Shown in pieces: positions 2,833 to 27,929 of a stretch of 64,000 nucleotides of DNA (the stretch's first letter is position 1; each line of letters begins with the position of its first letter). The stretch is from a virus. The stretch is from positions 1-64,000 of IMG/VR virus record IMGVR_UViG_3300030450_002944; one strand, given 5' to 3'. Under the pieces are notes generated by a model, which was not told the origin of the DNA, did not search any database, and was given only the letters and a program-made list of their open reading frames with translations. Both the position numbers and the translations under genes were made by a program.

Positions 2833-4200
2833 ATGGCAACAAATCCATCATTATCTGAGTACGTTGCTCAGTCTCAAAGAGGTTTGTATTCTTCAGTATT
2901 CGGACCTGAATACTTACAGAAACAGACTTACTTTACAGTGGACACTGCTACAGGTATTTTTAATACTACCTATGGTAGAAAAGTTTGGCATTCATTAAAC
3001 AACCAAACTCGTTTCTTCAATGCTGTCCCAAGAACTGTTTGGGGTAACACAGCTGGTTGGAGGATAAGAACAGACAGAGGTTCAGGACGATCAAGACCTG
3101 TAACTGAAACTGGTTCACTTCCTACAGTTGACGTTTCTAACATTGAAAGCATTTCTAGTTTACCTAGAATTGTTTCAACTACTTTTGGTGCTTCAGTGAA
3201 GTCAGTCTTTACTGCACAGCTAGAAGGTGGTGTTGGTGATGTGTTAGCATTGGAAAACGAAAATGCACAACTTGACCACGTTAAAGAAATTAACGAAGAA
3301 CTAATGGCGGGATCTGGATACGTTGTATCTGCAGGTTCCTCAACTACTGGTACTGTACCAGCATCAGTAGCTAAAAACATAAAAATTGGAGACTCAGTTG
3401 CATACTGGGATACTTCTGCAAATGACTACATTGACTCATCTGGACTAGCAGTTTCAGCAGTAAACACATCTACGGGTGCTATTACTCACGCTACTGCATC
3501 AGCTACTATTGCTGACGGTGACGGTATGATCGTTGTAAAAAGAGCAGGACTAACTTCAATTGACGACATCGTTCAAGCTGACGGAGCTGTAGTAGGTGGG
3601 TCTTACGACTCTAACTCAAACTTCGCCGCAAACGGTGGTGTTAATGCTTATGACTTAACATTCGGAGCAAGGGCTGCAGGAAACTGGAACGCCGCTGCTA
3701 CAGTTAAGGATAACAACGGTGTAGGAAGAGACCTTTCTCTAAACCTACTTGATGACTGTATTCAGACAGTAAGAACTAATGGTGGAGAACCTAAACTAAT
3801 CGTTATGGGTCATGACCAATACTTCAAACTAGAAAGATTACTACAATCACAACAGAGATACTTAGGACAGGAAGAGTACCAAGTTGGTGTGGGTTCTGAA
3901 AGAACCTTCCCCGGAACTCGAACTGGACTAGTTCTTGCAACTTACCAAGGTATTCCAATCTTGCCAGATGCAGACACTCCAAAGGGTGTTAGCACAGCTG
4001 ACGCAGTATTGGGTTCAAACGTATATGTTTTGGACACAGACTATCTTGAAATAGCTGTGGCACAACCAACACAGTATATAGAAAACAGAGACTACTTTGC
4101 AGCTAACGCTCTAGTAGTAAGAGGATTACTATACACTATGGCAGAAATGCGATGTCACAACTTCTTCACACAAGCTAAGATTACAGACTTAAACGCGTAA
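2833..4200 (+). CDS. Major capsid protein
   Basis: A 455-residue protein behind GAGGAGAAATT, directly after the scaffold-like gene and before decoration proteins. The N-terminal part resembles the arm and E-loop region of HK97-fold capsids (FFNAVPRTVWGNTAGWRIRT). Residues about 165-235 form a Gly/Ser/Thr-rich insert that looks like an extra surface domain (GDSVAYWDTSANDYIDSSG). The C-terminal half (KLIVMGHDQYFKLERLLQ, then GIPILPDADTP and MAEMRCHNFF) matches capsid A-domain patterns. Codon use is more GC-rich than in nearby genes, as expected for a highly expressed gene. Confidence 0.85.
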   Translation: MATNPSLSEYVAQSQRGLYSSVFGPEYLQKQTYFTVDTATGIFNTTYGRKVWHSLNNQTRFFNAVPRTVWGNTAGWRIRTDRGSGRSRPVTETGSLPTVDVSNIESISSLPRIVSTTFGASVKSVFTAQLEGGVGDVLALENENAQLDHVKEINEELMAGSGYVVSAGSSTTGTVPASVAKNIKIGDSVAYWDTSANDYIDSSGLAVSAVNTSTGAITHATASATIADGDGMIVVKRAGLTSIDDIVQADGAVVGGSYDSNSNFAANGGVNAYDLTFGARAAGNWNAAATVKDNNGVGRDLSLNLLDDCIQTVRTNGGEPKLIVMGHDQYFKLERLLQSQQRYLGQEEYQVGVGSERTFPGTRTGLVLATYQGIPILPDADTPKGVSTADAVLGSNVYVLDTDYLEIAVAQPTQYIENRDYFAANALVVRGLLYTMAEMRCHNFFTQAKITDLNA

Positions 4201-12497: not shown

Positions 12498-12761
12498 ATG
12501 ACAAAACGAGAAAAAGAATTACATAAAGATTTTGCAGAGATTTTAACTAAACTACATGAAGTAACAGGAGTAGTAGGAGAATTTTCTGATAGCACAATCA
12601 GAAGTTGGCTAGATGATTTATGGAACGATATAGAAGAAATGATGGCAAAGCATTTAGGATATACATTAGAAGATATGTCATATGAAGAATGGCAAGTAGA
12701 AAAAGATGATTTGAGAAAAGAAATTAAAGAATTACAAAAGCAAGTGAAGATAAAAGCATGA
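12498..12761 (+). CDS. Small coiled-coil protein
   Basis: An 87-residue charged helical protein with AAAGGAGAAT upstream, only about 18 bp from the -10 box. Its end (DDLRKEIKELQKQVKIKA) is a coiled coil. Unknown function. Confidence 0.7.
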   Translation: MTKREKELHKDFAEILTKLHEVTGVVGEFSDSTIRSWLDDLWNDIEEMMAKHLGYTLEDMSYEEWQVEKDDLRKEIKELQKQVKIKA

Positions 12762-20915: not shown

Positions 20916-21404
20916 ATGGCTAAAACTAAGTTAAGAAAGCGAAAGCAATCTAATGGTACTTATAACCTAGAATATGACCCAATTCCAATGGATAGGGTAC
21001 GAAAACAGGGAATTGAGTACATAAAAGCAACAGAATTGGTTAATGGAACTATCTTTGAGGGTAGGAAGATACCAAGTAGAATAGTATGCTTTTATAATAT
21101 AAAAGACCAAGAGATATCTTGGAAGTATAATGAGGGGAAAGCAGAGGAAGTATGTAATGGGAATACAGACTATTGTTATCTAGTTAGAGATGATATGTTC
21201 TGTCCTAATGGATACTATCTATGTCTACCTCATAATCATATAGTGGATTGGAGAGTATCAGGATTGGATTATCACTTTCTCTCCCCACAGGAATTTGAAG
21301 AAGATGAGAAAATGACTATGGAAGAATATGGGAAAATACAGGAAAAAGACCATATTACTTCGTATGAGAATATGAAAGATAAATTTGATTATTTAAGTAA
21401 ATAA
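20916..21404 (+). CDS. Hypothetical protein, 162 residues
   Basis: AAGGTAGGTATTGAAT lies upstream of the ATG. Basic N-terminus (KTKLRKRKQ), then an alpha-beta domain with YCYLVRDDMFCPNGYYLCLPHNHIV, where Cys and His could bind metal. The C-terminus is acidic. It is the last plus-strand gene before the strand switch. Unknown function. Confidence 0.7.
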   Translation: MAKTKLRKRKQSNGTYNLEYDPIPMDRVRKQGIEYIKATELVNGTIFEGRKIPSRIVCFYNIKDQEISWKYNEGKAEEVCNGNTDYCYLVRDDMFCPNGYYLCLPHNHIVDWRVSGLDYHFLSPQEFEEDEKMTMEEYGKIQEKDHITSYENMKDKFDYLSK

Positions 21405-21417
21405 CTTACCTTTTATA

Positions 21418-21456
21418 AGGGGATAGGTTTTATGGTTTTTCCCTATCCCCTTGACT
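21418..21456 (+). terminator. Terminator hairpin running into the next promoter
   Basis: GGGGATAGG (21418-21426) pairs with CCTATCCCC around a T-rich loop and is followed at once by TTGACTT, the -35 of the next promoter. Confidence 0.6.
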
Positions 21457-21480
21457 TAGGTATAGCGAATATGTTATAAT
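21451..21480 (+). promoter_or_regulatory. Sigma-70 promoter of a small RNA
   Basis: TTGACT, 18-bp spacer ending AATATGT, TATAAT. No reading frame of useful length follows; the transcript is a folded RNA. Confidence 0.85.
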
Positions 21481-21485
21481 AATAT

Positions 21486-21593
21486 TATAGGGTATTTAAG
21501 TATGCGAGGGTTGTCAGGGAAATTAGTAGTGAATGAACTGACCACAGAATGTGTTAATCCAACTACCCATACTTAACCACCCCCCCTTTTTTT
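21486..21593 (+). ncRNA. Candidate structured small RNA
   Basis: About 105 nt from a strong promoter to CCCCCCCTTTTTTT. TTAAGTATG (21496-21504) pairs with CATACTTAA (21568-21576). Inside are GTTG/CAAC, GTCAG (21513-21517) with CTGAC (21538-21542), and a CAC/GTG hairpin, giving a branched fold. No ribosome-binding site or frame is present. The class is unknown. Confidence 0.6.
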
Positions 21594-21599
21594 CCTAAA

Positions 21600-21617
21600 G
21601 GAGTTATATGATATATC
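21600..21617 (+). repeat. 18-bp box, copy 1
   Basis: GGAGTTATATGATATATC on the plus strand, 6 bp after the T-run of the small RNA. No matching -35 follows, so this copy marks the left edge of the box cluster. Confidence 0.9.
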
Positions 21618-21755
21618 AGCAGCCACCACCACAGGAGAGGAAATAGGTATATATAAGGAATGGAAAAGGAGAGGAAATGGAGAAGGAAAGGGGTGGGAAA
21701 TGGAAAGGAAGGAAGGGGTCAAATGTCGCATAACTCCCCATGTGGTAGGGGGTAC
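21618..21755. other. Purine-rich non-coding stretch
   Basis: Positions 21634-21720 are almost purely A and G on the plus strand (runs such as GGAAAGGAAGGAAGGGG). It ends with CGCATAACTCCCC (21728-21740), a partial box. No gene is seen. It lies between a plus-strand RNA and the end of a minus-strand gene. Confidence 0.6.
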
Positions 21756-22235
21756 TTAAAAGCACTCCCCTGATTGTTGCAATTCAAATATACTAGGTCC
21801 ACGATCTCTATGACGTATTAAGCTCTTATAGGCTTCTTGCAATCCCCATTCATAATAGAACGATTGACCAAATGACCTTTTGCACCACACAGTTAAACCT
21901 AGCATATCGTCAATTATAATTTCTCCCACTTCTCCGAGCCAATGTGCCAAATGATCAGAGATAAGAAAATATTGCATTACTTCTCCCTGTTTCCATTCAA
22001 TAAGTGCTTCTTTAAACTCTGGCTCTTCCATGTCTGGTAGGTTTTCAGGGTCATATCCCTGTCTAAAATCTTCTATATCTTCTGATGTTATAGCGTTTTC
22101 GGTTGCTATATATAAACTCTCGTAACTGTCGTCTTGCTCAAAGAACCTTTCGGCTACTTCGTTTACAAGATATAGTACGTTCTTATCACACCATTTCTTA
22201 AAGTCTTTATCTTCTGCTAATTTGTCGCTATTCAC
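21756..22235 (-). CDS. Hypothetical protein, 159 residues
   Basis: GTG start with AAGGAGTAAAAA upstream. Acidic, with YFLISDHLAHWLGEVGEIIIDDMLGLTVWCKRSFGQSFYYEWGLQEAY in the second half. This resembles small phage proteins of unknown function. It is the last gene of the box regulon and is preceded by two tandem promoters. Confidence 0.75.
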   Translation of the reverse strand: MNSDKLAEDKDFKKWCDKNVLYLVNEVAERFFEQDDSYESLYIATENAITSEDIEDFRQGYDPENLPDMEEPEFKEALIEWKQGEVMQYFLISDHLAHWLGEVGEIIIDDMLGLTVWCKRSFGQSFYYEWGLQEAYKSLIRHRDRGPSIFELQQSGECF

Positions 22236-22270
22236 TTTTTACTCCTTTATTAGTTTTTACTTATATATCA

Positions 22271-22300
22271 ATAATAGCATATATAGGGGGGGTAGGTCAA
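22271..22300 (-). promoter_or_regulatory. Box-associated promoter
   Basis: -35 TTGACC, 18-bp spacer, -10 TATTAT with ATATGC in front. The 18-bp box ends 5 bp upstream of the -35. Confidence 0.8.
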
Positions 22301-22305
22301 CCCCT

Positions 22306-22323
22306 GATATATCCTATAACTCC
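22306..22323 (-). repeat. 18-bp box, copy 2
   Basis: GGAGTTATAGGATATATC, one mismatch at position 10, reading toward the promoter at 22271. Confidence 0.9.
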
Positions 22324-22333
22324 ACCTACTATT

Positions 22334-22363
22334 ATTATATCATATAGGGAAGGGGTCTGTCAA
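22334..22363 (-). promoter_or_regulatory. Second, upstream promoter
   Basis: TTGACA, 18-bp spacer ending ATATGA, TATAAT. Not preceded by a full box but by a G-rich tract. Its transcript would run through box copy 2. Confidence 0.75.
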
Positions 22364-22407
22364 GGGAAAAGGGAAGGAAGGGAAAAGGGAAGGAAGGGGA
22401 TAGGGGG
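22364..22407 (+). repeat. G-tract repeat with quadruplex potential
   Basis: A 16-bp unit GGGAAAAGGGAAGGAA is present twice in tandem (22364-22395), then GGGGATAGGGGG. Six runs of three or more G occur in 44 bases. It abuts the -35 of the promoter at 22334-22363. Confidence 0.75.
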
Positions 22408-22410
22408 ACT

Positions 22411-22452
22411 GGAGTTATGCGATTATGGGTAGTGGCTCAAAGAGAGAGCCAC
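22411..22452. other. Partial box and hairpin
   Basis: GGAGTTATGCGA (22411-22422) matches the first half of the 18-bp box; the same partial box occurs inverted at 21727-21738. GTGGCTC (22432-22438) pairs with GAGCCAC (22446-22452), a hairpin past the end of the gene at 22499. Confidence 0.5.
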
Positions 22453-22498
22453 CACACAATTACGCCAACCACTATTAAGATTTCCAATCAATCCCCTT

Positions 22499-22753
22499 TT
22501 ACCACATAGAGTCAAATGCTTTAACCATGTTAGCCTGTACTTCATACCTAGATGCGTCTACCTGAACGTCTTGACCATCAATTATTACATAATCAATATC
22601 ATGAGCATAGATACTACCAATTTCTGTAGCATAGCCATACACTTTAGCCATTCTGATATTACCTTTTTTGTTGTCCATCATCTCAAACTTCCAACCATTT
22701 TTTTGGTATCCGACTGTCCCTTTTTTTATGTCATTAGGTTCAATAGTTTTCAT
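22499..22753 (-). CDS. Hypothetical protein, 84 residues
   Basis: AAAAAGGAACT precedes the ATG. It has a beta-rich N-terminal half (GYQKNGWKFEMMDNKKGNIRM), then IDYVIIDGQDVQVDASRYE. Unknown function. It has its own promoter without a box. Confidence 0.7.
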   Translation of the reverse strand: MKTIEPNDIKKGTVGYQKNGWKFEMMDNKKGNIRMAKVYGYATEIGSIYAHDIDYVIIDGQDVQVDASRYEVQANMVKAFDSMW

Positions 22754-22787
22754 AGTTCCTTTTTGCTAGTTTTTTCTTTATGTAATA

Positions 22788-22817
22788 AGTATATCATATT
22801 TGATCACTCTATGTCAA
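22788..22817 (-). promoter_or_regulatory. Promoter inside a gene end
   Basis: TTGACA, 18-bp spacer ending ATATGA, TATACT. The -35 overlaps the stop codon of the gene at 22809-22973. Confidence 0.75.
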
Positions 22818-22973
22818 CTCAATGTTTACAATTTCTTTGTCTGTTAATTTAATATTGTGTTGCTCATAAAAGTTATCTTTTACATTTTGGATAAATTCTT
22901 TTTTGGTTTCTCCATAATTATTTATCGCAAATGATAATTCTATTTCACAGAACCATTCTTTTTCTTCACTCAT
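22809..22973 (-). CDS. 54-residue acidic protein
   Basis: AAAGGAGTACGAAA precedes the ATG. Product begins MSEEKEWFCEIELSFAINNYG and continues with a charged helix (TKKEFIQNVKDNFYEQHNI). It is too short for a confident fold. Transcribed from a box promoter. Confidence 0.6.
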   Translation of the reverse strand: MSEEKEWFCEIELSFAINNYGETKKEFIQNVKDNFYEQHNIKLTDKEIVNIELT

Positions 22974-22992
22974 TTTCGTACTCCTTTATTTA

Positions 22993-23022
22993 AGTATAGC
23001 ATATTTGATCATTCTATGTCAA
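22993..23022 (-). promoter_or_regulatory. Box-associated promoter
   Basis: TTGACA, 18-bp spacer, TATACT; the box ends 4 bp upstream of the -35. Confidence 0.8.
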
Positions 23023-23026
23023 TAGG

Positions 23027-23044
23027 GATATATCATATAACTCC
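23027..23044 (-). repeat. 18-bp box, copy 3
   Basis: Exact GGAGTTATATGATATATC toward the promoter at 22993; directly preceded by the T-run ending the structured RNA. Confidence 0.9.
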
Positions 23045-23485
23045 AAAAAAAATAAATTTAACTAAGCGTGGCGAAGGTGTCAGATTGAATGAAACTCACT
23101 TTCAAACTTAGACTTACGATATCATGATATGATCGTGCTACATCAGGCTACAACTTCGGCTTTCTATCCTAGGCTAGTGGCGGAAGTGATACATCTGGCT
23201 CAACGTCAGGGAACAGAGGGATCTGCAAGATACTCTATTTCTATTCGTTTATCTGAACTTGTACTAAAAGTTCGTTAACAATTAAGTACAACTGATAGTT
23301 TGACAATAACCTTCAAAAGTTTCTGTACAGGTTGCGAACCTATGAGCCTACTTAACCACGCTTATTAAATTGTTAAACAAGATTGATGATCGGTTGTTAT
23401 AGACCGAATTTAATCTGTCCACATTCCCTACTTCGTTGTATTGGTAAAATGTTATTCACATTCATCGTTACTTCCTCAACCTTGT
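23045..23485 (-). ncRNA. Large candidate structured RNA
   Basis: A box promoter at 23492 is followed by about 440 nt with no substantial reading frame. TAAGCGTGG (23364-23356) pairs with CCACGCTTA (23071-23063), closing a 290-nt domain, and the 3' end runs into ATTTTTTTTGG. An inner hairpin AGGTT-CGC-AACCT lies near 23325-23340. A 22-codon frame starts near 23473 in the 5' leader. It does not look like tmRNA, RNase P or 6S RNA. Confidence 0.6.
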
Positions 23486-23491
23486 AATATA

Positions 23492-23522
23492 AGTATAGCA
23501 TATTAAAGAGTGGTAATGCAAT
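23492..23522 (-). promoter_or_regulatory. Box-associated promoter of the structured RNA
   Basis: -35 TTGCAT, 19-bp spacer, -10 TATACT; the box ends 5 bp upstream. Confidence 0.7.
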
Positions 23523-23527
23523 ACCTT

Positions 23528-23545
23528 GATATATCATATAACTCC
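23528..23545 (-). repeat. 18-bp box, copy 4
   Basis: Exact GGAGTTATATGATATATC toward the promoter at 23492. Its first two bases lie in the hairpin CCTCTT/AAGAGG (23544-23560). Confidence 0.9.
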
Positions 23546-23560
23546 TCTTAAAAAAAGAGG
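23544..23560 (-). terminator. Hairpin abutting box copy 4
   Basis: CCTCTT pairs with AAGAGG around a T-only loop on the minus strand, past the end of the gene at 23617. Confidence 0.4.
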
Positions 23561-23616
23561 GCAGGTGGGGGAAGGGGAAAAATGAAAAAACCCCAAACCC
23601 CTCTTGTACCTACCTA

Positions 23617-23853
23617 TTACATTTCCTCAGCCATTGCCCAAAGGATAGGCTCAACTTCACTAGATATCTGTAAATGGAAGTCGCAACACTTTAACCTGTC
23701 GTTCATTTGATCTTTGGAAAAGATTAGAATATCCTTTATGGAAAAGGCTTTCCTATCTTTACAATCAAACCATTGTCGCCAATACCCTTTATCAGAGTCC
23801 ACTTCATAGTGAACATTCTCGTTTCTATATTTAAAAGTTCCTTTAGCTTTCAT
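23617..23853 (-). CDS. Hypothetical protein, 78 residues
   Basis: Follows the gene at 23855 by one base and has GAGGTTAAG upstream. KGTFKYRNENVHYEVDSDKG at the start is beta-type; a helical end follows. Unknown function. Confidence 0.65.
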   Translation of the reverse strand: MKAKGTFKYRNENVHYEVDSDKGYWRQWFDCKDRKAFSIKDILIFSKDQMNDRLKCCDFHLQISSEVEPILWAMAEEM

Positions 23854-23854
23854 C

Positions 23855-24046
23855 TTAACCTCTATTCATTTCTATATATTTTTCATTTAGTTCTGTTCTT
23901 ATTACATCGCAATCATCAGAACACACAACATTATTTCCATAACATTCTGTATGATCTTTTTGATAGTTTTTCCACTCTAAAATTTCATCATCTGTTAGAG
24001 TGAAAGACTTAGGGTGTTTATGTGAGTTGCTAATCCAAGATATCAT
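23855..24046 (-). CDS. Hypothetical protein, 63 residues
   Basis: AAAGGAATAAA precedes the ATG. LTDDEILEWKNYQKDH is followed by two Cys pairs (ECYGNNVVCSDDCDV), so a metal site is possible. Transcribed from 24076 and from a box promoter further upstream. Confidence 0.65.
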   Translation of the reverse strand: MISWISNSHKHPKSFTLTDDEILEWKNYQKDHTECYGNNVVCSDDCDVIRTELNEKYIEMNRG

Positions 24047-24075
24047 TTTATTCCTTTACTTGTTTCTATACTTAT

Positions 24076-24105
24076 ATTATAGCATATTTAATGTAGGCTT
24101 GTCAA
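24076..24105 (-). promoter_or_regulatory. Sigma-70 promoter
   Basis: TTGACA, 18-bp spacer ending AATATGC, TATAAT. No box directly upstream. Confidence 0.85.
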
Positions 24106-24198
24106 GTGTGTCTTGTTTAGATTTACATATAACGACTTGCAAGAGCTTTCAGGATCAGGGAATACTTACTCAACCCCACTTGACTACCTACTAAGTAT

Positions 24199-24228
24199 AT
24201 AATAACATATATGAAGTAGTGAAGTCAA
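24199..24228 (-). promoter_or_regulatory. Box-associated promoter
   Basis: TTGACT, 18-bp spacer ending ATATGT, TATTAT; the box ends 5 bp upstream. It lies about 120 bp above the promoter at 24076, a tandem pair. Confidence 0.8.
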
Positions 24229-24233
24229 TACTG

Positions 24234-24251
24234 GATATATCATATAACTCC
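24234..24251 (-). repeat. 18-bp box, copy 5
   Basis: Exact GGAGTTATATGATATATC, overlapping the end of a 16-bp tandem repeat array. Confidence 0.9.
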
Positions 24252-24312
24252 CATAAAGAATGTGTCCCATAAAGAATGTGTCCAGTAAAGAATGTGTCCA
24301 GTAAAGAATACG
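24250..24312. repeat. 16-bp tandem repeat, about 4 copies
   Basis: Units CCCATAAAGAATGTGT, CCCATAAAGAATGTGT, CCAGTAAAGAATGTGT and a partial CCAGTAAAGAAT follow each other without gaps. The array abuts box copy 5. It resembles iterons or an operator array. Confidence 0.85.
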
Positions 24313-24380
24313 AGGATTTTTTTCACAAAAAACTTTTCTCCCAAGTCAATGGGCTAGGTGGGCTAGATTTTTAAATCCTC
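24312..24380 (-). terminator. Long hairpin at a gene end
   Basis: GAGGATTT (24312-24319) pairs with AAATCCTC (24373-24380), which includes the stop codon of the gene at 24380. On the minus strand several T-runs lie within it. Confidence 0.4.
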
Positions 24381-24517
24381 TATTGGATGTCGTCTGAAAT
24401 CTTCAGATCAGGAGAGAGGTCATTCCAGTTAAGGATTTCCTCTACTTCTTTATCGGCAGACTCATCATTCCTACCGACACTCATTAGGATTTCATCTATT
24501 AGTTCTCTTAGAGTCAT
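24380..24517 (-). CDS. 45-residue acidic protein
   Basis: GGAGGTCTATT precedes the ATG. Acidic, helical (TLRELIDEILMSVGRNDESAD) with DLSPDLKISDDIQ at the end. Unknown function; a single-gene cassette behind a box promoter. Confidence 0.6.
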   Translation of the reverse strand: MTLRELIDEILMSVGRNDESADKEVEEILNWNDLSPDLKISDDIQ

Positions 24518-24562
24518 AATAGACCTCCACTTTTTTTGGTTTTGTTTTATCGACCTAATATA

Positions 24563-24590
24563 AGTATAACATATATTCTTTTTACGTCAA
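24563..24590 (-). promoter_or_regulatory. Box-associated promoter, 16-bp gap
   Basis: TTGACG, 16-bp spacer, TATACT. Here the box ends 16 bp upstream of the -35, one helical turn further than in most copies. Confidence 0.7.
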
Positions 24591-24606
24591 ACCCCTACCC
24601 CCCATT

Positions 24607-24624
24607 GATATATCATATAACTCC
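24607..24624 (-). repeat. 18-bp box, copy 6
   Basis: Exact GGAGTTATATGATATATC, immediately after a terminator T-run. Confidence 0.9.
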
Positions 24625-24672
24625 AAAAAATGAGAGTATAGAAAGAAAAAATGTAAAACTTCCTATACTCTC
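24625..24672 (-). terminator. Intrinsic terminator
   Basis: GAGAGTATAG pairs perfectly with CTATACTCTC and is followed on the minus strand by ATTTTTT. It ends the genes at 24680 and 24739 and abuts box copy 6. Confidence 0.75.
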
Positions 24673-24679
24673 TTAATTG

Positions 24680-24742
24680 TTAATGTTCTTCACATTTAGG
24701 GCAAATAATAGTTGAGCCATTTCTTATACAATCGCAACTCAT
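24680..24742 (-). CDS. 20-residue zinc-ribbon-like peptide
   Basis: The ATG overlaps the stop of the preceding gene (ATGA). The peptide has MSCDCIRNG and CPKCEEH, four Cys in 20 residues. It may be a real mini-protein coupled to its neighbour, or chance. Confidence 0.4.
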   Translation of the reverse strand: MSCDCIRNGSTIICPKCEEH

Positions 24743-24966
24743 AAGGGTAATTTTCCAGACTCTTTTTTCTGTTCCCACGTTGCCGACTCTATAGCACCTC
24801 TGAAAATCTGTTCATTAAAGTTTGGGTTATCATCTGCAAATATTTTGCATAATTCTTGGTATAGTATATCAGGGTCTATATATTGAAAACTGCTTGTCGC
24901 AGAGTCAATAAATTTTATACTGTTTTTCCACACGTCCACAAATTTTATGTAATCTTTTTTAGTCAT
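24739..24966 (-). CDS. Hypothetical protein, 75 residues
   Basis: AAAAGGAAAAAAAG precedes the ATG. Helical, with YIKFVDVWKNSIKFIDSA and a C-terminal ESATWEQKKESG. The pattern is known from small phage proteins of unknown role. Transcribed from a box promoter. Confidence 0.65.
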   Translation of the reverse strand: MTKKDYIKFVDVWKNSIKFIDSATSSFQYIDPDILYQELCKIFADDNPNFNEQIFRGAIESATWEQKKESGKLPL

Positions 24967-24997
24967 CTTTTTTTCCTTTTTATTAGTTGATACATTA

Positions 24998-25027
24998 AGT
25001 ATAGCACATTAAAGATTATTAATGCAA
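24998..25027 (-). promoter_or_regulatory. Box-associated promoter, 16-bp gap
   Basis: -35 TTGCAT, 18-bp spacer ending ATGTGC, -10 TATACT; the box ends 16 bp upstream. Confidence 0.75.
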
Positions 25028-25043
25028 TACCCCCACCCCTATT

Positions 25044-25061
25044 GATATATCCTATAACTCC
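25044..25061 (-). repeat. 18-bp box, copy 7
   Basis: GGAGTTATAGGATATATC, same variant as copies 2 and 9. Confidence 0.9.
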
Positions 25062-25086
25062 AGTTGAAATTAAATGAAATCAACTG
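25061..25086 (-). terminator. Hairpin at a gene end
   Basis: CAGTTGA pairs with TCAACTG; the stop codon of the gene at 25070 lies in the loop. The hairpin touches box copy 7. No T-run follows. Confidence 0.35.
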
Positions 25087-25375
25087 AATTAGGTTCTTGT
25101 CTAGTTATTAGAACTGAATCTTGTTCAAATTTAGTTTTATATTTTAGGGCAACTTTATTAACCACGTTGATATAATTAATATTATTTTTTTCATGAAGGA
25201 TAGATACAACTTTAGTTTTCTCTTTAGTTCCCTTCCAATAACCTGTAATTTCTGATACTGAAAAACCTTCAACTTCATTAGCAAGTTCAGTATCTAGAAA
25301 ACTATTAAATTGTTTATCTGATACAACTGACTTATTTTTTATATCAGTTCCAAAATATATTAATGTGTTTATCAT
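25070..25375 (-). CDS. DUF3574-like protein
   Basis: A 101-residue protein. LIYFGTDIKNKSVVSDKQFNSFLDTE, then GFSVSEITGYWKG, KVVSILHEKN and YKTKFEQDSVLIT follow, in order, the pattern of DUF3574 (YFG, VSxxxWxxFLD, GQW, YxxRFxQESVL). That family is mostly bacterial and of unknown function, often periplasmic; here there is no signal peptide. Transcribed with the basic protein upstream from box copy 8. Confidence 0.65.
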   Translation of the reverse strand: MINTLIYFGTDIKNKSVVSDKQFNSFLDTELANEVEGFSVSEITGYWKGTKEKTKVVSILHEKNNINYINVVNKVALKYKTKFEQDSVLITRQEPNSVDFI

Positions 25376-25379
25376 TTTA

Positions 25380-25559
25380 TTACCATACCTTCCGTTCTAG
25401 AGTTTGCTTTATTCTTAGTTCATTAATCTTAGCTTTAGTTAATGGTTTAGGTTTAGATCCATTGCCCTTAACAACTGTTATACATTTTCCATTTTTTCCA
25501 ATGGGTACAATCAGTCTTGACTTACTTCTTTTAACTTGTCTTTTACTTGGTATATTCAT
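25380..25559 (-). CDS. Basic hypothetical protein, 59 residues
   Basis: AAGAAGGATTAAAAAA precedes the ATG. Strongly basic (PSKRQVKRSKSRL; SKPKPLTKAKINELRIKQ), so nucleic-acid binding is possible. It stops 5 bp before the DUF3574-like gene. Confidence 0.6.
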   Translation of the reverse strand: MNIPSKRQVKRSKSRLIVPIGKNGKCITVVKGNGSKPKPLTKAKINELRIKQTLERKVW

Positions 25560-25591
25560 TTTTTTAATCCTTCTTTTTAGTTACTATAATT

Positions 25592-25621
25592 ATTCTATCA
25601 TTTTATTTACTACCATGTCAA
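25592..25621 (-). promoter_or_regulatory. Box-associated promoter
   Basis: TTGACA, 18-bp spacer, TAGAAT; the box ends 5 bp upstream. Confidence 0.75.
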
Positions 25622-25626
25622 CCCCT

Positions 25627-25644
25627 GATATATCATATAACTCC
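25627..25644 (-). repeat. 18-bp box, copy 8
   Basis: Exact GGAGTTATATGATATATC; its GG belongs to the hairpin at 25643-25669. Confidence 0.9.
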
Positions 25645-25669
25645 CCCGAAAAATAATAAAAATCGGGGG
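25643..25669 (-). terminator. GC-rich hairpin abutting box copy 8
   Basis: CCCCCGA pairs with TCGGGGG; the loop on the minus strand is T-rich. It ends the gene at 25684. Confidence 0.5.
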
Positions 25670-25683
25670 GAGAGAGTAATTAA

Positions 25684-25911
25684 TTAATCGTCAATGTTTG
25701 GTTGTTCCATTCTTGCGATATGGTTATCCACAATGTACCCTGAATATATTTCATCAGAGAGAATGAAAATCTGTTTCCAGAATAACCCTGATTGAGTATC
25801 AAGAAAATCTTCATCTTCTTTAACACCTGATTTAATAATCGCTAATGCTAAATCGTTGTATCCCTGTGCTATTGCTTGTTCTTTATCTAATCCATTATAA
25901 TCTGTAGCCAT
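25684..25911 (-). CDS. Hypothetical protein, 75 residues
   Basis: AAAGGAGATTTAAAAA precedes the ATG. Acidic, helical (KEQAIAQGYNDLALAIIKSG). Unknown function. Confidence 0.65.
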   Translation of the reverse strand: MATDYNGLDKEQAIAQGYNDLALAIIKSGVKEDEDFLDTQSGLFWKQIFILSDEIYSGYIVDNHIARMEQPNIDD

Positions 25912-25958
25912 TTTTTAAATCTCCTTTGATTTAATTTATTTATTTATTTAACCTATAA

Positions 25959-25989
25959 TTATTGTCTCATGGATTTGATTTTTTTACAA
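25959..25989 (-). promoter_or_regulatory. Weak box-associated promoter
   Basis: -35 TTGTAA, 19-bp spacer, -10 AATAAT; the box ends 7 bp upstream. This is the poorest match of the set and may depend on activation. Confidence 0.4.
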
Positions 25990-25996
25990 CCCCCAT

Positions 25997-26014
25997 GATA
26001 TATCCTATAACTCC
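25997..26014 (-). repeat. 18-bp box, copy 9
   Basis: GGAGTTATAGGATATATC toward the gene at 25684. Confidence 0.9.
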
Positions 26015-26019
26015 TCTGC

Positions 26020-26244
26020 TTATTCGTACACCTCCCCTAATAAGTCGCCGTCTGCTTCTTGAGGTGTATCAAAATCTACAACCTCATAATTTTCTATGGC
26101 GTGTTTCTGTACTGTAGGTATGCCCTGATCCTCGCAAGCCTGCAACCTTTTTAAAGGCGTTTTGTAGCCGTCATCATCTGCCTGATACGCAGACTCCCAG
26201 TCCCAGTTCTCAGCCCAAAATTTTAAGTTCTCTAAGTTATCCAT
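26020..26244 (-). CDS. Acidic hypothetical protein, 74 residues
   Basis: TAAGGAGAAAAA precedes the ATG. Begins MDNLENLKFWAENWDWESAYQ, very acidic throughout; ends DGDLLGEVYE. Unknown function. Confidence 0.65.
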   Translation of the reverse strand: MDNLENLKFWAENWDWESAYQADDDGYKTPLKRLQACEDQGIPTVQKHAIENYEVVDFDTPQEADGDLLGEVYE

Positions 26245-26277
26245 TTTTTCTCCTTAACTAAATTTAACTATACCTAT

Positions 26278-26305
26278 AGTATATCACATATTCAAAACTT
26301 GTCAA
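26278..26305 (-). promoter_or_regulatory. Box-associated promoter, 25-bp gap
   Basis: TTGACA, 16-bp spacer, TATACT. The box ends 25 bp upstream, about two turns further than the common spacing. Confidence 0.7.
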
Positions 26306-26330
26306 CCCTGTGCCACTCGGCTCAACTAGG

Positions 26331-26348
26331 GATATATCACATAACTCC
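26331..26348 (-). repeat. 18-bp box, copy 10
   Basis: GGAGTTATGTGATATATC, one change at position 9. Confidence 0.9.
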
Positions 26349-26374
26349 ACTTCAGCCGAAAAAAAACTGAAGTG
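26348..26374 (-). terminator. Hairpin abutting box copy 10
   Basis: CACTTCAG pairs perfectly with CTGAAGTG; T-rich loop on the minus strand. It ends the gene at 26381. Confidence 0.45.
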
Positions 26375-26380
26375 AGTATA

Positions 26381-26524
26381 TTAATCGTTCTGAAAATATT
26401 CAATCATAAGTTTAAAGTGTTCCCTATCTAGTTTTTCAACTGGGACATGTTGCAATAATTCCATTAACATATTAACAATAGTATTTAATTTTATATCTAT
26501 TCGTTCTAAGTCTAATTTATCCAT
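26381..26524 (-). CDS. 47-residue helical protein
   Basis: GGAGAAATAATAAA precedes the ATG. A heptad-like helix (LERIDIKLNTIVNMLMELLQ) then a polar end. No promoter of its own is clear; it may be transcribed with the gene at 26717. Confidence 0.55.
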   Translation of the reverse strand: MDKLDLERIDIKLNTIVNMLMELLQHVPVEKLDREHFKLMIEYFQND

Positions 26525-26621
26525 TTTATTATTTCTCCTTTAGTTGTTTATTGTTTTAATTTAATTTTTTATTTATTTTTTATTTCTCCCTTCTACTTAA
26601 TATTACGTGTAATAAAGGGTA

Positions 26622-26654
26622 AAAAACGTCAGAGAAACATCAGAAAAACGTCAG
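26622..26654. repeat. 11-bp tandem repeat, 3 copies
   Basis: AAAAACGTCAG, AGAAACATCAG, AAAAACGTCAG in direct succession, one per helical turn, in a non-coding gap between two minus-strand genes. Possible operator array. Confidence 0.7.
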
Positions 26655-26716
26655 AGTTTTTTATATTCAAAAAACAAACTGAAGTAAGTATATTAAGATT
26701 ATGTATAATAAAATTT

Positions 26717-26947
26717 TCATTTTAAATCTCCTATAATAATTTGAAAATCCATATTCCCAGAGTTCTCATCACCTCCCACAATAGTGATGAAATCCTTTTG
26801 AGAAGGATCATCAATATCAAAATAGTGTGACTCCACCCAGTAGCAGTAACCACACATAACCACTTCATCACCATCTACATCAACCACCAATCCCCAAGAT
26901 GCTATTTGGTTTATTATTAAGTTGCAGAAGTTACATTCTTTATTCAT
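26717..26947 (-). CDS. Zinc-finger-like protein, 76 residues
   Basis: AAAGGAGATTTAAAAAA precedes the ATG. CNFCNLIINQ at the N-terminus and CGYCYWVESHYFD in the middle give two CxxC pairs. Unknown function. Confidence 0.65.
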   Translation of the reverse strand: MNKECNFCNLIINQIASWGLVVDVDGDEVVMCGYCYWVESHYFDIDDPSQKDFITIVGGDENSGNMDFQIIIGDLK

Positions 26948-26992
26948 TTTTTTAAATCTCCTTTATTTGTTTTTTGGGCATAGTATCCCGTA

Positions 26993-27020
26993 TTTATAAT
27001 ATTAGCACATTTGGGGTCAA
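26993..27020 (-). promoter_or_regulatory. Promoter with box in opposite orientation
   Basis: TTGACC, 16-bp spacer, TATAAA. Box copy 11 lies 2 bp upstream but reads away from the promoter. Confidence 0.5.
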
Positions 27021-27022
27021 AA

Positions 27023-27040
27023 GGAGTTATATGATATATC
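27023..27040 (+). repeat. 18-bp box, copy 11
   Basis: Exact GGAGTTATATGATATATC on the plus strand, inverted relative to the neighbouring minus-strand promoter. Confidence 0.9.
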
Positions 27041-27124
27041 CCGTACCACTCCCATTTATTTACCTCAGCCGTAAACGAACTGGAGTAAATAAATTAAAAT
27101 GATATATAATAAAATTTTCATCAG

Positions 27125-27325
27125 TTACGCCTTTCTATCTACAATTGTTGCTGAATATTTTCTACTCATTAAAAATAATTTAGAACCATTAGGGCTAGTT
27201 ATTTCCAAATCTCCAAAATCATCATAATCATCTTTATCAACTGACTTTTCTATCGCTTCTTTTTTTGATTTAGCCACAACCGTTTTGTAAGCAATCTGGG
27301 TTTCTTTGATTAAGTATTCTTTCAT
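27125..27325 (-). CDS. Hypothetical protein, 66 residues
   Basis: AAAAGGAGAAAAAA precedes the ATG. The start (KEYLIKETQIAYKTVVAKSKKEA) resembles small beta-alpha phage proteins. Unknown function. Confidence 0.65.
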   Translation of the reverse strand: MKEYLIKETQIAYKTVVAKSKKEAIEKSVDKDDYDDFGDLEITSPNGSKLFLMSRKYSATIVDRKA

Positions 27326-27360
27326 TTTTTTCTCCTTTTGTTATTTAACCTTATATAGAT

Positions 27361-27389
27361 ATTTTACAATACCACCCCCCTTATTGCAA
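27361..27389 (-). promoter_or_regulatory. Promoter beside an inverted box
   Basis: -35 TTGCAA, 17-bp spacer, -10 TAAAAT; box copy 12 lies 7 bp upstream in opposite orientation. Confidence 0.55.
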
Positions 27390-27396
27390 CCCCTTT

Positions 27397-27414
27397 GGAG
27401 TTATATGATATATC
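27397..27414 (+). repeat. 18-bp box, copy 12, between divergent promoters
   Basis: Exact GGAGTTATATGATATATC. It is correctly oriented for the plus-strand promoter at 27431 with a 16-bp gap and also adjoins the minus-strand promoter at 27361. Confidence 0.9.
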
Positions 27415-27500: not shown

Positions 27501-27929
27501 ATGACTAAACAAGAAATTAAAGCGTGGGTGAAATTACAAGATAATATCAACATGCAAAAAACATTTGATACTATCACTACTAACTTACGCCCACTAGATA
27601 AAGAAATCCTTAGTAGATTTATTATAGAAAAGGACACTATAAAAAATATTACTGAATGGCTAAATTCAGAATTAGGTCTAAATTTAACTACTTTTAAAAC
27701 TTCCAAAATTATTAAGACAATTCAAAGATACTTAGTAGCTTTATATCATGACACACCACATCATATTAGAGATGCCCGAAAAATGGGAATGTCTGTTACA
27801 AGATTCGTACCTACAACCAATGCTCCCGCTACTCCACATATAATAGTGGAGCAGAAAAAATACATTGGGGACATCTGTATTTCTAGAACTATCAACATCA
27901 AAAGAAGCAAGAGCGGTTATTGGAAGTAA
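27501..27929 (+). CDS. Possible HTH regulator of the box regulon
   Basis: A 142-residue basic protein, the only plus-strand gene in this region. Residues 32-75 (LDKEILSRFIIEKDTIKNI, then LGLNLTTFKTSKIIKTIQRYL) look like a helix-turn-helix of the sigma region 4 type: acidic helix, turn, then a second helix. The C-terminus is basic (TINIKRSKSGYWK). It sits behind box copy 12 and faces the cassettes. That it binds the box is inference; the HTH match is weak. Confidence 0.45.
   Translation: MTKQEIKAWVKLQDNINMQKTFDTITTNLRPLDKEILSRFIIEKDTIKNITEWLNSELGLNLTTFKTSKIIKTIQRYLVALYHDTPHHIRDARKMGMSVTRFVPTTNAPATPHIIVEQKKYIGDICISRTINIKRSKSGYWK

Follow-up and report, generated by a model that had tools for sequence, protein, structure and literature searches.

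An 18-bp element in helical phase with the promoters of a shuffled small-gene module in a lineage of uncultured tailed phages

Why a phage genome should carry a dozen near-identical copies of one short sequence in a single block of small genes, and nowhere else, is the question raised by this locus. The 18-mer GGAGTTATATGATATATC is present in 12 copies between positions 21600 and 27414 (5.8 kb) of the window, the 64,000-nucleotide stretch of virus record IMGVR_UViG_3300030450_002944 that was analysed here. Eight of the 12 match GGAGTTATNNGATATATC exactly, and the other four carry a change solely at position 9 or 10; these counts, and the placement of every copy, agree with the initial annotation. 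Shuffled sequence yields 0.16 ± 0.39 matches at up to three mismatches. The annotation had noticed no copy elsewhere in the window, and a scan of the other ~75 kb of the 81,307-bp record likewise returned no further 18-mer. With a looser scan and a search for the 8-mer GGAGTTAT, the rest of the genome was again empty: the 8-mer occurs in the 12 full copies and in two half-elements, GGAGTTATGCG, all inside the module. The copies and the module features are listed below, where the gap is the distance from the element to the −35 box and each pair of hexamers gives the −35 and −10.

21600..21617, + strand: copy 1, located 3′ of a small rightward RNA unit, with a promoter on neither side
21730..21737, − strand: half-element GGAGTTATGCG at the 3′ end of gene A, with counterparts in three relatives
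21756..22235, − strand: gene A, function not assigned, found in every genome that has the element and in the one that has its variant
22306..22323, − strand: copy 2, AG spacer, gap of 5 bp to TTGACC/TATTAT, gene A
22363, − strand: upstream promoter, starting just ahead of copy 2
22411..22418, + strand: half-element GGAGTTATGCG near the 3′ end of gene B
23027..23044, − strand: copy 3, gap of 4 bp to TTGACA/TATACT, gene C (22809-22973)
23046..23500, − strand: non-coding RNA unit, RNA of ~430 nt, conserved in four genomes with elements on both flanks
23528..23545, − strand: copy 4, gap of 6 bp to TTGCAT/TATACT, the non-coding RNA unit
24234..24251, − strand: copy 5, gap of 5 bp to TTGACT/TATTAT, a short leader or small RNA preceding gene E, no ORF beginning within 160 bp
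24607..24624, − strand: copy 6, gap of 16 bp to TTGACG/TATACT, gene F (24380-24517)
25044..25061, − strand: copy 7, AG spacer, gap of 16 bp to TTGCAT/TATACT, gene G (24739-24966); ortholog gaps of 15 and 16 bp in two relatives
25070..25375, − strand: gene H, DUF3574, with weaker similarity to S-adenosylmethionine lyase
25627..25644, − strand: copy 8, gap of 5 bp to TTGACA/TAGAAT, genes I-H; gap of 16 bp at the ortholog of I in relatives
25997..26014, − strand: copy 9, AG spacer, gap of 7 bp to a weak promoter, gene J; ortholog gap of 15 bp
26331..26348, − strand: copy 10, GT spacer, gap of 25 bp to TTGACA/TATACT, gene K (26020-26244)
27023..27040, + strand: copy 11, inverted relative to the sole adjoining promoter, that of gene M (TTGACC/TATAAA, 2 bp from the GGAG end); in a relative the M ortholog has the normal orientation and a gap of 15 bp
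27397..27414, + strand: copy 12, gap of 16 bp to TTTACA/TAGAAT, gene O (27501-27929, + strand); common to the divergent gene N

The similarity of gene H makes it a possible anti-restriction protein; the leftward units otherwise encode small proteins without an assigned function.

The genome encodes an SU10-type major capsid protein, a DnaB-type helicase, a primase, a family A DNA polymerase, a sigma-70-like protein and a ribonucleotide reductase. It has no megablast match in INPHARED, which also holds no relative of gene A, and many related contigs are found in IMG/VR by means of the DNA polymerase. Besides the source genome (G000), the element occurs in IMG/VR only in 3300030098_001779 (G001, 82 kb), 3300025132_005424 (G002) and 3300006920_000450 (G003). 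The four related uncultured phages together carry 32 copies, all in the homologous module, so that the genome-wide search called for by the annotation, here and in relatives, did not encounter an equal density of the element elsewhere. It is absent from G010, which represents 49 kb of a close relative and has many core proteins that are 84–95% identical, and from two distant full-size relatives (G013 and G014). A fifth genome, reached via gene A, has homologs of the same flanking genes and carries two identical copies of the variant GGAGTTATAGATATC with no normal copy. Searches for further relatives via gene M returned none, and those via gene B and the RNA returned only the known ones. Among 84,980 bacterial and archaeal genomes there were 21 single matches, approximately the number that simple arithmetic predicts by chance for 17 fixed bases.

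Alignment of the 32 copies reveals a bipartite and polar site of the form GGAGTTAT-N(0-2)-GATATATC. All of the variation resides in the spacer, which is of two bases in 29 copies, one base in two and none in one, and conservation falls off at either end of the element. Relative to local transcription, 31 of the 32 have the GGAG end on the upstream side (p ~1.5e-8), the exception being the copy at 27023. The core had previously been described as containing a palindrome; the bipartite form describes the structure better, and the case for one 15-bp palindrome (GATATAT-C-ATATAAC) bound by a homodimer is weakened, as variation is found only at positions 9–10 and is not mirrored at 12–13. A leader-peptide reading (GGAG-TTAT-ATG) is ruled out by several copies that have no ATG.

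To evaluate where the element lies relative to promoters, a scoring matrix was trained on those promoters of these phages that lack the element, and was then run on both sides of every copy. Promoters on the GATATATC side score far above background, with the exception of two J promoters that fall at or below the 95% background level, and the gaps from the element to their −35 boxes are 3–7, 14–16 or 25 bp. No gap of 8–13 or 17–24 bp is seen among the scored element promoters, save that one promoter of G002 ties at 18 versus 16. When each orthologous architecture is counted once, which leaves 19 independent promoters, the strongest periodicity is at 10.5 bp (R=0.88, Rayleigh p ~3e-7); p is 6e-7 with a strict set of 17 and 4e-4 with the ten gaps of the window alone. 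The gaps of 4–7, 16 and 25 bp and the helical phasing proposed in the initial annotation are thereby reproduced, the latter also in genomes outside the window. Its description of the copies as lying upstream of promoters holds for most and fails for those at 21600, which has no promoter, and 27023, which is inverted. No ORF begins within 160 bp of the promoter at 24234.

The same genes can be followed between genomes with their spacing changed. The gap is 5 bp at gene A in the window and 14 bp in relatives, 5 versus 16 bp at gene I and 7 versus 15 bp at gene J, so that in these orthologs the distance has shifted by 8–11 bp with the phase retained. The long spacers between element and −35 are unrelated in sequence, and a copied spacer therefore does not account for the steps. 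The stop codon that precedes the element lies anywhere from 5 to 175 bp away, indicating that the element is positioned by the promoter and not by the gene end. The tie of the copies to promoter phase is also the reason for setting aside a reading as replication iterons or partition sites. Assuming an 18-bp promoter spacer, the element centres lie at about −50.5, −61.5 and −70.5, positions a helical turn or so apart and of the kind from which class I activators act. Such phasing requires something that reads the helix face relative to RNA polymerase.

Promoters throughout these phages resemble TTGAC-N18-TATAAT with an extended −10 (TG-N), and the spacer is of 18 bp in 41 of 43. Where an element is present the −10 box is weaker, as would be anticipated for an activator regulon: with all promoters compared having a TTGAC core, TATAAT occurs in 1/11 element-bearing and 30/38 element-free promoters (p=5e-5, or p=0.0014 if regex matches inside genes are retained without curation), a comparison that is not fully independent because the four genomes are related. 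A weaker −35 in the element promoters, scored by matches to TTGACA, was not significant. Several of them carry a good TTGACA and could fire unaided, which counts against a need for an activator.

The explanation that we favour, with moderate confidence, is that the element is the site of a trans-acting factor controlling initiation in the module, most likely an activator making a class-I-like contact with polymerase. The polar, bipartite site would bind a DNA-binding protein, either encoded by the phage or recruited from the host, which would sit at about −50, −61 or −70 from the start site and always occupy the same helical face with respect to RNA polymerase. By touching the polymerase it would activate promoters with a sigma-70-type −35 and an extended −10, compensating for the weaker −10. 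The controlled set would be the leftward module of some ten short transcription units, nearly all comprising one small gene or RNA, and this early-type module would be confined to a single lineage of tailed phages, all of them uncultured. We infer protein binding, activation, polymerase contact and early expression from the pattern of the sequences. The annotation had called the locus an apparent regulon and had taken helical phasing as a hallmark of activator sites; the phased regulon is well supported, and activation is favoured over repression by the phasing, the weaker −10 boxes and the class-I-like distances. Against the activator reading are the copies at 21600 and at 12596 of G001, which have no promoter, and the inverted copy at 27023.

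It is rather unlikely, though the strongest of the alternatives, that the sites act in silencing in the manner of operators and stoperators, with a phage repressor bound to polar sites at promoters and unit 3′ ends and acting through polymerase contact or a block to elongation. The orientation of the sites follows transcription even at 3′ ends without a promoter (21600, and 12596 of G001, the only such copies among the 32 in four genomes), and half-sites are found at gene ends. Cluster A stoperators (L5 and TipsytheTRex; PMC9283540) likewise are numerous, near-identical and asymmetric sites, aligned with transcription and located in promoter regions and short intergenic spaces, some of which have no promoter. 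The stoperators differ in being 13-mers that are dispersed genome-wide and serve as binding sites of the immunity repressor, whereas the element is found in one module only (5.8 of 81.3 kb) and is phased to the −35. Its position is upstream of the −35 and not over it, weaker −10 boxes are not expected at repressed promoters, and the proteins scanned, which represent part of the ORFs, included no recognisable lysogeny repressor or ordinary integrase. The two copies without a promoter leave room for a stoperator-like role.

We consider it improbable that the element is mainly a recombination joint for shuffling one-gene units, with regulation secondary. Shuffling itself is evident, for the order of units in G000 and G001 has a Kendall tau of 0.44, against 0.87 for the early rightward genes and 1.0 for the remainder; unit B is inverted, and in each of the four genomes the RNA unit has an element on either flank and different neighbours. 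However, phasing to the −35 with a period of 10.5 bp would not be expected of a joint, orthologous units have promoters that differ on the downstream side of the element, so that breakpoints are not limited to it, and no dedicated recombinase was found nearby. A role in recombination could coexist with regulation. Direct binding of the C-terminal domain of the polymerase alpha subunit, as at an UP element and with no extra factor, would suit the A+T-rich core, its location in the UP-element region and the phase dependence, but is very improbable given the 16 near-invariant specific bases including GGAG, the polarity, the absence of the element from 20-odd other promoters with the same core and the concerted variant site in a relative.

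In the middle promoters of T4 the MotA box replaces the −35 at about −30; here a −35 is present and the element lies further upstream. The Mu middle promoter Pm, with Mor, is similar in being part of a phage regulon that combines host sigma-70 polymerase with a DNA site upstream of the −10, and differs in that the Mor site overlaps the −35 at a fixed −43.5, whereas the promoters described here have an intact −35 and a site whose distance changes in steps of a turn (PMC4390567). Class I promoters of the CRP type, such as aer with CRP at −49.5, share the site upstream of the −35, the helical-turn steps and the apparent compensation for a weak core (PMC2859248). A poor core element can likewise be offset by a factor such as IscR (PMC8561392). 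The CRP site is unrelated in sequence, and no CRP-like protein was identified here.

By analogy, the closest counterpart is the extended start-associated sequence (ESAS) of Cluster K mycobacteriophages, of which Adephagia has seven copies. ESAS (PMC3203893, PMC11373665) is also a lineage-specific repeat, containing an inverted repeat, that lies upstream of some scattered non-structural genes with putative sigma-70-like promoters, is common to several gene families and has no assigned regulator. It differs in being a 46–47 bp motif that contains the promoter and precedes a 13-bp SAS near start codons. In the present module the promoter does not include the element, which is set at three helically phased distances from it, conservation stops at the 18-mer, and there is no SAS-like repeat. 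Phasing in multiple helical registers is not described for ESAS or stoperators in the parts of those sources available (PMC3203893, PMC11373665, PMC9283540). In the literature searched, mostly outside subscription journals, no phage system of this layout was found beyond ESAS, stoperators, CRP-type promoters and Mu Pm. The earlier description of the regulon as undescribed fits the searches of INPHARED and of the bacterial and archaeal genomes, although its general kind is known from ESAS and stoperators.

For the regulator of the favoured activator model, the best phylogenetic matches are gene A and the protein encoded at 20916-21404. Structure models of these two products, the best conserved among the neighbouring proteins, were too poor for use (pLDDT 45 and 31). 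Gene O was rejected as a candidate, having no homolog in the other element-bearing genomes, and the regulator may instead be among other shared early genes. More tentatively, a single dedicated activator might accept sites at any of three helical registers, such that units could be gained, inverted and re-ordered freely and yet be kept in the regulon. The accessory module would then probably serve host takeover and counter-defence, and close relatives with GGAGTTATAGATATC or with different repeats might represent turnover of regulator specificity, much like that of phage immunity.

The small accessory genes of phages are a source of new anti-defence proteins, and how one-gene units enter and leave while timing is kept is poorly understood in phages. 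The natural promoter series, in which the gap at one gene is changed by about one turn, suits tests of activator geometry, and the element would serve as a sequence tag for finding further members of the module. Were a site able to work from several helical registers, this would account for the retention of control by shuffled units.

Several features besides the 18-bp element are listed here, from the region of the leftward module and from L014.

23046-23500, (-) strand: non-coding RNA of ~430 nt, with counterparts in L009, L010 and L013.
25070-25375, (-) strand: DUF3574 protein that also resembles phage S-adenosylmethionine lyases, though less strongly.
21480-21598, (+) strand: predicted small RNA unit, with a promoter of its own at 21451 and a T-run at its end.
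24254-24311: tandem 16-bp repeat (ATAAAGAATGTGTCC..), directly adjoining element copy 5.
L014:9902-13291: single 1129-aa protein in which a poly(A)-polymerase-like head is fused to an HD domain and a topoisomerase IB-like domain.
L014:14219-15367: substrate-binding lipoprotein of the PnrA/Bmp type, encoded by the phage.

The ~430-nt RNA has its own promoter and its own terminator. Across the four element-bearing genomes its mean column identity is 84%, and changes on both sides are seen in 12 of the predicted pairs. Its fold energy is by itself unremarkable, and no match to the RNA was returned from Rfam. The DUF3574 protein is a possible anti-restriction protein.

Long polypurine tracts (21630-21725 and 22350-22405) adjoin the half-elements (GGAGTTATGCG), which are partial copies of the element; the relatives have kept these tracts. 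At the spot matching the predicted small RNA unit, the relatives carry instead a leftward promoter opposing a hairpin. The close relative G010 (L223, a contig end) lacks the element and has different repeats in its leftward region, where TGTGATATTAGA occurs five times, compared with zero in the remaining 41 kb. The start of contig L010 (1-2750) bears tail-type genes differing from those of the other relatives, and this contig may be a chimeric assembly.

The nearest named relatives of the major capsid protein (2833-4200) are from haloarchaeal tailed viruses, with ~30% identity over one third of its length. Standing against this likeness, both the promoters and the sigma-like gene speak for a bacterial host. 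Genome-wide, the spacer of the phage promoters measures 18 bp in 41 of 43, and their -10 is extended.
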